From Marivirga tractuosa DSM 4126 (GTDB taxonomy: Bacteria; Bacteroidota; Bacteroidia; Cytophagales; Cyclobacteriaceae), in contig NC_014759.1 of NCBI RefSeq assembly GCF_000183425.1, positions 4,331,001-4,395,000 of the forward strand: DNA of 64,000 nucleotides. The letters run 5' to 3'. Position 1 is the stretch's first letter; every line of letters begins with the position of its first letter. Below are positions 17,493 to 19,783 of the stretch, piece by piece. Made by a program: the position numbers and the translations under genes. The notes beneath the pieces were generated by a model. It was given only the letters and a program-made list of their open reading frames with translations. It ran no database searches and was not told the DNA's origin.

Positions 17493-17539
17493 AAAAAAAA
17501 AGACGGCAGAAGAACATGATATTACAACTACCGTCTTTT
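17493..17539 (-). terminator. Intrinsic terminator after the DUF1399-like gene
   Basis: A 9-bp stem AAAAGACGG/CCGTCTTTT (17498-17506 with 17531-17539) continues on the minus strand into a run of T residues. It lies 20 bases after the stop at 17560 and defines the end of the small operon. Confidence 0.7.
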
Positions 17540-17559: not shown

Positions 17560-18069
17560 TTAGCGTTTTAAAGCTTTTAATTTCTCTTTGCTAAATTTTT
17601 CAGGATACTCTTCATACCACTTGCTAACTGTTTCAGCTCCCAGTTTGTCGTAAATGTAGGACAACTGTTGACTTAATTTTTCTTCTTGGTGCTTTTCAAA
17701 TTTTTGTTTTTCAACATCACTATCAAAACCTTTTACCTTTGCTGAGGGAAGAGTAGGTTCATGATGCACAAACAAATTAAGCTTATCATTGCAAAACTTC
17801 TGATAAGAACGTGTATGCAAAATGAAGTTATGCCACATCTCATCAATGATCAGTAATGAGCTGTCAATAAAGAGACGAAATCGTTTCTTTTCTTTGATAT
17901 TTTCGGAAGCTAACCATAGCCATTTTTTGGTCTCTTGTAAGATTTCTTCTGCATCCTCACGATTTATGGAATATCTTTCCATAAAACCTTCGATGATGAT
18001 ATGATCCTCATTGCTATCTAATGCTCTTAGTAAGCTTTCATTAGATTTATCAGTTGCTGATTGAAACAT
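17560..18069 (-). CDS. DUF1399/GRDP-like protein
   Basis: The cytoplasmic-looking protein has 169 residues, with no signal or membrane segment. The central part (FIDSSLLIIDEMWHNFILHTRSYQKFCN, about 65-92) resembles the core of plant and bacterial glycine-rich-domain-like proteins (DUF1399), which have the pattern D..WH....h...Y..FC. The C-terminal third is charged and helical. The function is unknown. It lies 19 bases downstream of a 42-codon gene under one promoter and before a terminator, so the two form a closed two-gene unit. Confidence 0.6.
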   Translation of the reverse strand: MFQSATDKSNESLLRALDSNEDHIIIEGFMERYSINREDAEEILQETKKWLWLASENIKEKKRFRLFIDSSLLIIDEMWHNFILHTRSYQKFCNDKLNLFVHHEPTLPSAKVKGFDSDVEKQKFEKHQEEKLSQQLSYIYDKLGAETVSKWYEEYPEKFSKEKLKALKR

Positions 18070-18088
18070 GAGACTTAAAGTATCGATA

Positions 18089-18217
18089 TTAATTGCTTAC
18101 ACAATTTGTCTCACATAACTGATGCTGATTTGTTTTCTTGTCTCTTAAGATTCTCTTTAATAATTGTTCTTTTTCTGTGTTTACCTTTGACCTAGTTTTT
18201 GTAGTAGTAGTTTGCAT
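18089..18217 (-). CDS. 42-residue cysteine-containing peptide upstream of the DUF1399-like gene
   Basis: The ATG at 18217-18215 opens 42 codons ending TAA. The product has a Thr-rich start (MQTTTTKTRSK), a basic helical centre (EKEQLLKRILRDKKT) and a C-terminal part QHQLCETNCVSN with a CxxxC pair. A near-perfect promoter lies 40 bases upstream, and the next gene follows after 19 bases. The shape (charged leader-like part, short Cys-containing tail) recalls a modified-peptide precursor, but no known modifying enzyme is nearby. It could also be a small regulatory protein. Translation is inferred from context. Confidence 0.55.
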   Translation of the reverse strand: MQTTTTKTRSKVNTEKEQLLKRILRDKKTNQHQLCETNCVSN

Positions 18218-18256
18218 TTCTTGTACTTTTTGGAGTTAAATAAAATTTTCAGAGCG

Positions 18257-18286
18257 CAAAGGTATTTTCTGATAATTAGTAAACAA
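18257..18286 (-). promoter_or_regulatory. Promoter of the peptide and DUF1399 operon
   Basis: On the minus strand TTGTTT (18286-18281) precedes TACCTTTG (18264-18257). From the TTG to the -7 element there are 19 bases, matching the Bacteroidota housekeeping consensus. The start site would be near 18250, about 33 bases before the peptide ATG. Confidence 0.75.
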
Positions 18287-18514
18287 GTAAAAACACAACT
18301 ATTTGAAATACTGTATTTTAACCGATTTAATAAATCATGATATATTTAATTATAATATAAATATATCAATATATTTATTGAAACAGTTATTTAAAAATGT
18401 TCATAAAATTGAGTAAGTTTTAAGTGGTTTTTTGATGACTTAATTATCATAATTCTTAGAAGATTAAAATATCAACTAGAGAATTATTTAAATGTTTAAA
18501 TTGCATTAAACCTA

Positions 18515-19783
18515 TTAGGTCTTTTTCTTTTTCTTCTTCGCAGCCGGAAATAAAATATTATTTAAGATCAATCTATAACCAGGAGAATTGGGATGTAAAT
18601 TCAAATCTGTTGGAGGTTCGCCTACAAAGTGTTGGTAGTCTTCTGGATCATGACCGCCATAGAAAGTCCAAAAGCCATCACCAAAAATCCCGTGAATATA
18701 GCGCGCTTCATTGATGGAGGAATTTTCTCCTAAAATAACAACATCTGGTTTTATTAATTTCTTTTTATAAGCGGTAGTTTGTCCCATGAAGCCTTTTACT
18801 AGCTTTTCATGATTTTGAGTCAACATAGTTGGAATTGGATCCCACTTTGCCGAGAATTCAAATAAGGTGAAGAAATCATTTCCTTCTTTTATTCCAGGTC
18901 TGTCAATTTGGTTTTGGTCAATATTTGAGTACTCATATTCTAGCGGGTTCATTTCAAGTTTAAAGTCCTCAAAAGCTAGGGTCTGCTCATAATCTAATTT
19001 TTCTTGTGCATCGGGGTCTGCCGGATCTCCATCATACATTCTTGCTGCTAGGTCAACACCAGCTGCCGACAAGGCAATATCATAGGTGTCGGTTGCTGAG
19101 CACATAGCAAATAGAAAACCTCCCTTATTAACAAAGCTTCTTATTTTATGCGTAATTGCGAGTTTAAGTTGAGATACTTTTCTGAACCCATGCTTTTTTG
19201 CCATAGCTTCATATTCTTTCTGTTGCTCTATATACCAAGGTTGATTGGCATAACTGCGGTAGAATTTACCATATTGGCCGGTGAAATCTTCGTGGTGTAA
19301 ATGCAACCAATCGTAATCCGATAAACCTTCTGTCATGATCTCATCATCGAAAATAACATCGTAAGGAATTTCAGCATAAGTTAATACCAAGGTTACAGCA
19401 TCATCCCAAGGCTGTTTTGATTTTGGAGAATAGACGGCAATTTTGGGCACTTTATCTAAACGCATTGCATCTTTATTGGAGGAAGGACTGGCTATTTCAT
19501 CTAACATATTATTGGCAACTGCATCAGAAATAATCTCATAAGAAACACCTCTAATGATTAATTCATTAACGATTGACTGCTTGCTTTCAATCATAAAACT
19601 GCCTCCTCTATAGTTTAGTAGCCAATCAACAGGGATTTCTTTCTCTAAAACCCAAAAAGCTACTCCATAGGCTTTCAAATGATTGGACTGCTCCTCATCC
19701 ATAGGAACTAAAATTTGATTCGCTTTCAGAGCTTGGGTGGAGAGAAAAATAATAAGTATATAAAGAAAAATTTTTCGTGTCAT
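18515..19783 (-). CDS. Exported protein of unknown function (often misnamed asparagine synthetase B)
   Basis: The protein has 422 residues with a signal peptide (hydrophobic 5-20, cleavage near LKAN). Relatives in Bacteroidota are frequently labelled asparagine synthetase B, but I see neither the N-terminal catalytic Cys of a class II glutaminase nor a synthetase ATP loop. Segments such as KIAVYSPKSKQPWDDAVTLVLTY and GGFLFAMCSATDTYDIAL look more like a Rossmann or glutamine-amidotransferase-like fold. The tail is a run of lysines. It stands alone between intergenic regions. I expect a periplasmic role but cannot name it. Confidence 0.6.
   Translation of the reverse strand: MTRKIFLYILIIFLSTQALKANQILVPMDEEQSNHLKAYGVAFWVLEKEIPVDWLLNYRGGSFMIESKQSIVNELIIRGVSYEIISDAVANNMLDEIASPSSNKDAMRLDKVPKIAVYSPKSKQPWDDAVTLVLTYAEIPYDVIFDDEIMTEGLSDYDWLHLHHEDFTGQYGKFYRSYANQPWYIEQQKEYEAMAKKHGFRKVSQLKLAITHKIRSFVNKGGFLFAMCSATDTYDIALSAAGVDLAARMYDGDPADPDAQEKLDYEQTLAFEDFKLEMNPLEYEYSNIDQNQIDRPGIKEGNDFFTLFEFSAKWDPIPTMLTQNHEKLVKGFMGQTTAYKKKLIKPDVVILGENSSINEARYIHGIFGDGFWTFYGGHDPEDYQHFVGEPPTDLNLHPNSPGYRLILNNILFPAAKKKKKKT

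Follow-up and report, generated by a model that had tools for sequence, protein, structure and literature searches.

A short Cys-containing peptide and its DUF1399-like partner in Marivirga and beyond: a putative minimal RiPP-type unit

What could a 42-residue peptide and a protein of a domain family without an assigned activity do together? The question is raised by a compact locus of Marivirga tractuosa DSM 4126, located in a stretch of 64,000 nucleotides (named the window hereafter; features in Table 1). A sequence-only reading of this locus had proposed that both genes form a closed operon with their own promoter and terminator, and that their fixed pairing points to peptide maturation, export or a small regulatory pair.

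Table 1. Features of the peptide/DUF1399-like locus, in window coordinates
Feature	Position	Strand	Details
42-aa peptide ORF	18217-18089	minus	ORF translation
DUF1399-like gene, 169 aa	18069-17560	minus	19 nt after the peptide ORF
Promoter, Bacteroidota-type	18257..18286	minus	TTG 18286-18284 and TACCTTTG 18264-18257
Intrinsic terminator	17498..17539	minus	12-pair outer stem and U-tract
Sensor histidine kinase, 1110 aa	14068..17400	minus	Reg_prop, Y_Y_Y and HATPase_c above cut-off; HisKA below
Candidate operator block TCATGATTTATTAAATCGGTTAAAATACAGTATTTCAAATAGTT	18297..18340	minus	5' of the promoter; inverted repeat GATTTA-T-TAAATC

The two ORFs and the gap between them are as first described, and the elements that flank them also withstood scrutiny. 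The box TACCTTTG, together with its TTG partner, fits the promoter consensus of Bacteroidota, and a TAnnTTTG motif is found 45-47 nt 5' of the peptide ATG in 10/10 same-genus loci (L001-L010). The site is absent from the list returned by a sigma-70 scan, which revealed no excess of sites (11 versus 14.5 in shuffles). The terminator is predicted to fold at -17.3 kcal/mol (z -5.6), a value that none of 200 shuffles equalled. The view of a closed operon holds for promoter, pair and terminator, but not for the unit as a whole, since the next gene after the pair encodes a sensor kinase, here and, more generally, in Marivirga and Fulvivirga (19/80 loci). In the window, the terminator lies between the pair and the kinase gene, so that transcription of the latter probably relies on a start of its own or on read-through. 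On the other side of the pair, a 44-base block is more conserved than its upstream flank among nine same-genus loci, and its first 29 bases occur only once in the genome even with up to three mismatches allowed, which suggests that the unit is probably regulated. This block, present in 4/16 kinase-type loci and absent from the other 12, is a candidate for an operator dedicated to the pair. Further upstream, a 422-aa protein (window 18515-19783) has no family match above cut-off; L036, L037, L039 and L040 likewise encode, upstream of their pair, proteins that are 91-95% identical to it.

The short ORF behaves as a true peptide gene. It is intact in 10/10 same-genus genomes, where it encodes 41-42 aa just upstream of the DUF1399-like gene, and displays a dN/dS of ~0.43 (36 pairs of nine same-genus sequences, the most diverged one, L010, being left out). 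In the same nine sequences, both Cys are retained while their codons alternate between TGT and TGC. Peptide coding, initially a presumption, is thus backed by selection at the protein level, and the gene has the properties of a genetically encoded short precursor as expected for a RiPP. The same data bear on another possibility, in which the ORF would be translated as a regulatory leader for the gene that follows, the peptide itself being functionless. Although its position 19 nt before the next start codon and behind the same promoter would suit such a role, synonymous changes exceed amino-acid changes, the peptide gene is found downstream of the DUF1399-like gene in Pseudoalteromonas and 1.7-2.1 kb upstream of it in Shewanella, and one locus (L084) carries it in two tandem copies. 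We consider this explanation highly improbable. The peptide itself is made of a conserved N-terminal segment, NTEKEQLLKRIL, and a variable Cys-containing end, LCETNCVSN, a layout that corresponds, as judged from sequence, to the conserved leader and variable core of RiPP precursors. The C-terminal CxxxC that was anticipated to be conserved did not hold, the pattern ranging from CxxC to three or more Cys across loci. Used as a query against the window's genome, the peptide matched nothing but itself.

The pairing extends well beyond the genus. Relatives of the DUF1399-like protein were found in 20 of 59 genomes, 14 of them at E <1e-20 (10 same-genus and 4 others). All ten same-genus genomes keep the pair, and the four other strong-match genomes (five loci: L011-L014, L021) display a Cys-containing ORF of 33-43 aa upstream. 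The spread of the family is patchy: in a phylum draw of 395 genomes, 17 showed a match, two of them a strong one (including the window's own genome), and the 15 weaker matches were mostly long GRDP-like proteins. When named genomes were scanned with a profile of 15 proteins, 100 relatives emerged, from which 80 loci were kept. The majority come from Bacteroidota (Marivirga, Fulvivirga, Marinoscillum, Flavobacterium, Tenacibaculum, Aquimarina, Mucilaginibacter and others), besides Proteobacteria (Pseudoalteromonas, Shewanella, Paraglaciecola, Kosakonia, Pseudomonas, Luteibacter), cyanobacteria and some MAGs of other groups. Going by record names, we take the phyla with a peptide-bearing pair to be Bacteroidota, Proteobacteria and Cyanobacteria, together with an Oligoflexales MAG.

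Within 350 nt upstream, 63/80 loci carry a small ORF whose second half contains two or more Cys, compared with 17/517 control genes, which were other genes of the same loci (anchored at the called ORF start plus 20, and at the start of the tblastn match for the 80 loci). The check suggested by the first reading, i.e. looking for a short Cys ORF just upstream of homologous genes, thus came out in favor of a fixed pairing across several phyla. The excess persisted when loci were thinned by identity of the DUF1399-like protein (54/69 at 90%, 33/45 at 70%, 26/38 at 60% and 16/25 at 50%), and therefore does not result from relatedness alone. Two of the 63 upstream ORFs (L059, L062) were judged to be chance, because the genuine peptide of that group is encoded downstream, and were treated as misses in the thinned counts. 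An after-the-fact tally accepting all peptide placements and tailed proteins reached 75/80 loci; its additions are downstream or distant peptides (L059, L061-L064, L076, L077, L072), single-Cys or weak cases (L103; L057 and L115, with leader E-values of 1.3 and 3.9) and tailed proteins (L100, L114, L082). The tests used revealed no peptide in 5/80 loci (L060, L079, L087, L088, L101); three of these (L060, L087, L088) sit on records of <6 kb, and only 160 nt separate the start of L079 from a contig end.

A partner that recognises the leader predicts that leaders, more than cores, should be common to the different genomic contexts, and this is what we observed. A leader-only profile was built from 18 kinase-type peptides, from which everything from the first Cys on had been removed, and was run on the small ORFs (6541) of the remaining 62 loci, one of which, L115, is of the kinase type. 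The top five matches all lie upstream of a DUF1399-like gene, and ORFs adjacent to such a gene account for 16 of the best 30 matches versus 84/6541 overall (hypergeometric p 1.5e-23, uncorrected for relatedness). Single E-values are weak, the best being 0.0067 and all but five exceeding 0.5. The matches include cyanobacterial, Oligoflexales and Pseudoalteromonas peptides, and the leader includes a short stretch that roughly follows KxxLIxxIxxK.

The pair is probably best understood as a minimal RiPP-type unit composed of a precursor and its cognate maturation factor. The short gene would encode the precursor, with an N-terminal leader and a variable C-terminal core that contains, as a rule, at least two Cys. 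The DUF1399-like partner would recognise the leader and, via its D/E/H/H/Y residues, modify the Cys core or ready it for modification. In Marivirga and Fulvivirga, the product may be exported and would then probably be perceived outside the cytoplasm by the propeller kinase encoded beside the pair, forming a circuit of peptide signalling; other lineages have the pair next to a TonB/ABC operon or an ABC exporter with a C39 peptidase. Comparison of the loci establishes the pairing, the leader/core layout, the similarity of leaders across contexts, the exporter context and, for some proteins, the Cys tails. Among the roles initially put forward, maturation of a RiPP-like precursor is the best supported; leader binding, core modification, export and sensing by the kinase are inferred.

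The DUF1399-like partner deserves particular attention. It shows no Pfam or NCBIfam match above cut-off; PF07173 gave no match at E-values up to 1, hence below its gathering cut-off, and identities as Sigma70_r2 or TIGR02985 were rejected because of scores far below cut-off. Similarly, PF07173 is not among 25 of the 33 weak families listed for 76 relatives, of which at most one member could match. In spite of this, the term 'DUF1399-like' proved justified at the profile level, as the window family aligns with GRDP-like proteins with an hhalign probability of 98.9% (E 1.7e-17, 92 columns). The target was an alignment of 19 hand-picked proteins (13 matching PF07173 at E up to 0.1) that omits L016, L018, L020, L117, L123, L126, L133 and L134. 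Since PF07173 found matches in just 2 of 149 genomes of the class, its model misses the DUF1399-like family. The homology with GRDPs (PF07173, e.g. plant AtGRDP2) spans the IDxxWH...HxP region, but the window protein differs from them by the absence of both a PF07173 match and a glycine-rich tail. Its own motif reads DEMWH ... Y ... HHxP. In the alignment of 76 proteins, which omits 9/80 loci with doubtful starts, longer proteins or near-duplicates (L060, L079, L082, L093, L100, L103, L105, L108, L114), positions F29, D76, E77, M78, W79, H80, L84, Y89, H103 and G144 are invariant, and H102, P105, Y140, T147 and W151 nearly so. E77 is not universal, since L082, outside this alignment, reads DKMWH with K in its place. 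The conserved D/E/H/H/Y residues look like a metal or catalytic site. A PDB search with the 76-protein profile returned no solved relative, its three matches (E 0.67-0.86) being taken as chance. In L060 (2519-3136), the DUF1399-like part ends a 589-aa frame whose start resembles a glycosyltransferase by eye, possibly a fusion or an assembly artefact.

In several proteins, the Cys-rich segment is found in cis. The DUF1399-like proteins of L100 (Kosakonia), L114 (Pseudomonas) and L082 (Saccharospirillum) are longer and end in a Cys-rich tail, e.g. GCGCSGKGCGAGCSCN; no separate peptide was seen in these loci, where an ABC-exporter-like ORF comes next (by eye). The leader profile did not match these tails (two rank 255 and 443 of 657), so what we claim here is a Cys-rich tail and not a leader. 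By eye, the C terminus of the 19 hand-picked GRDP-like proteins consists of Cys/Gly repeats in 14 cases and of another Cys-rich tail in three; with E up to 0.1, three of the 19 match 'YxzE-like putative bacteriocin'. A Cys tail is absent from L118 and L136, which are part of this set, and from L016 and L018, which were left out of it. Long GRDP-like proteins of other Bacteroidota genomes (L119-L131, L133) bear tails such as SSCGSSCGSSCGGCGGD. In borosins, enzyme and precursor are fused in one protein, and some DUF1399-like proteins are similar in bearing a Cys-rich C-terminal tail instead of a separate peptide. Borosins differ by their backbone N-methylations; no methyltransferase family appears among 25 of the 33 weak families listed for the 76 DUF1399-like proteins. 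A bolder extension, which we put forward tentatively and consider possible at best, is that DUF1399/GRDP proteins constitute a new class of peptide-modifying enzymes acting on Cys-rich cores, in trans on precursors with a leader in bacteria from several phyla and, in longer relatives, in cis on their own Cys-rich tail, and that the Marivirga/Fulvivirga product is an autoinducer read by the kinase. If DUF1399/GRDP proteins were such a class, a biochemical role could also be proposed for the GRDPs of plants, which are uncharacterised. Publications bearing the word DUF1399 deal, by title, mainly with plants, besides a fungus and actinobacteria with plants, and, within the open-licence literature searched, no paper was found to connect RiPPs with DUF1399, with PF07173 or with 'glycine-rich domain-containing protein'.

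RiPPs of the MNIO type, such as methanobactin and chryseobasin, offer another comparison. The most common context of the pair is shared by 31/80 loci, in which a protein of 299-311 aa directly follows the DUF1399-like gene (L065:10486-11400 and 30 further loci); scanned representatives show no Pfam or NCBIfam family above cut-off, and it is possibly a second maturation protein. A TonB receptor, a lipoprotein and an ABC ATPase accompany it in 23 of these 31 loci. The Cys-containing core and the TonB receptor nearby are reminiscent of MNIO RiPPs, but the MNIO enzyme model MbnB_TglH_ChrH (PF05114) has no match in any of the 10 same-genus genomes. This context would also be compatible with a metal-handling pair, in which a metal, free or chelated, would be bound by the Cys peptide and loaded or read by the DUF1399-like protein. 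Indeed, HCSNCGHC is found in 25/31 upstream peptides of the TonB/ABC type, acidic and His residues are conserved in the DUF1399-like proteins, and the single TonB receptor that was scanned is siderophore-receptor-like, although its best model, MxcH, scores below cut-off. The sole lipoprotein run against Pfam matches DUF4374, among whose members a passage of PMC13142918 places the siderophore-binding XusB, but with a score under the curated cut-off. Moreover, the Marivirga cores have two Cys only and no conserved His, and the window unit adjoins a sensor kinase instead of an uptake operon. A metal-handling pair is accordingly an unlikely explanation in our opinion.

C39-peptidase ABC exporters were recognised by motif in 4/80 loci (L076, L077, L081, L103) and confirmed in all three that were scanned (L077, L081, L103); GG or GA precedes the core in the exporter loci. 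From their ORFs, L098 and L088 resemble this group. As in C39-peptidase (PCAT)/GG-leader RiPP pathways, a short precursor with a conserved leader and a variable Cys core is encoded, in these relatives, beside a C39-ABC gene. Kinase-type loci depart from these pathways in that they share a kinase neighbour and that the window's genome has no C39 match. The GG-type leaders and C39 exporters of some relatives would equally fit class II bacteriocins, and the pair is small and self-contained, so that the peptide could be an unmodified secreted bacteriocin- or pheromone-like molecule (with a disulfide at most) and the DUF1399-like protein an immunity or self-protection factor. However, this partner keeps ten invariant positions over 76 proteins while peptide cores vary, most immunity proteins show the opposite trend, Cys tails in cis are unexpected for such proteins, and the leader rather than the core is what the contexts have in common. 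We regard this alternative, too, as rather improbable. The remaining contexts (26/80 loci) are diverse. In Pseudoalteromonas, the DUF1399-like gene is followed by the peptide ORF and by methyltransferase-like and P450-like ORFs (the last two by eye). In L088 (597-1925; Rickettsiaceae MAG) and L072 (8645-9943; Shewanella), a protein of 245-247 aa and a second protein are encoded before the DUF1399-like gene; in L088, the former is without Pfam match and the latter is a DUF6817 protein.

Which known enzymes could assist the putative maturation factor? C39 peptidases gave no match in the window's genome, a gap in leader removal and export that speaks against our reading. LanC-like cyclases have no match in this genome either, and matches in 1/10 same-genus genomes, where three of them (G005:C1:1360571-1365185) lie ~64 kb from the pair. 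The YcaO domain has no match in any of the ten, the window's genome included. No SPASM maturase is encoded at the locus, and the single TIGR04085 match of the genome is ~1.77 Mb away. One unlinked SPASM-type radical SAM gene is present in each of the 10 same-genus genomes, and its product could act in trans on the peptide. According to PMC11225308, antiSMASH assigned type III PKS and terpene clusters to Marivirga strains generally, and lanthipeptide and RiPP-like clusters to one strain each. Given that the pair is present in 10/10 same-genus genomes, such units are probably missed by mining of this kind. If our proposal is correct, the pair would add a RiPP-type family built on a domain without assigned activity, in a two-gene system small enough to be tested in E. 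coli, and would open DUF1399/GRDP proteins, also present in plants, to biochemical study for the first time.

Finally, the context of the window itself is that of the 19/80 loci (Marivirga and Fulvivirga) in which a propeller/Y_Y_Y histidine kinase, usually of ~1100 aa, is encoded after the pair, with a gap of 54-856 nt between called ORFs. In these loci, the kinase is the only widely shared neighbour cluster. The window kinase matches those of 17/19 loci at E <1e-50, with identities of 67-79% for four close full-length kinases and 33-37% for twelve other full-length ones. Over 16 of the 19 loci (L036, L049 and L115, partial or short, being left out), identities of the DUF1399-like proteins and of the kinases are correlated, with a Spearman coefficient of 0.77, or 0.73 without pairs among L037-L040 (pairs being non-independent). 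Furthermore, Fulvivirga marina and F. imtechensis each have two cassettes that match across species for both genes. The kinase and DUF1399-like genes thus tend to be inherited together, although the nearest relative agrees for both proteins in only 10/16 loci. In L048 and L052, a second, convergent kinase-type gene lies downstream.
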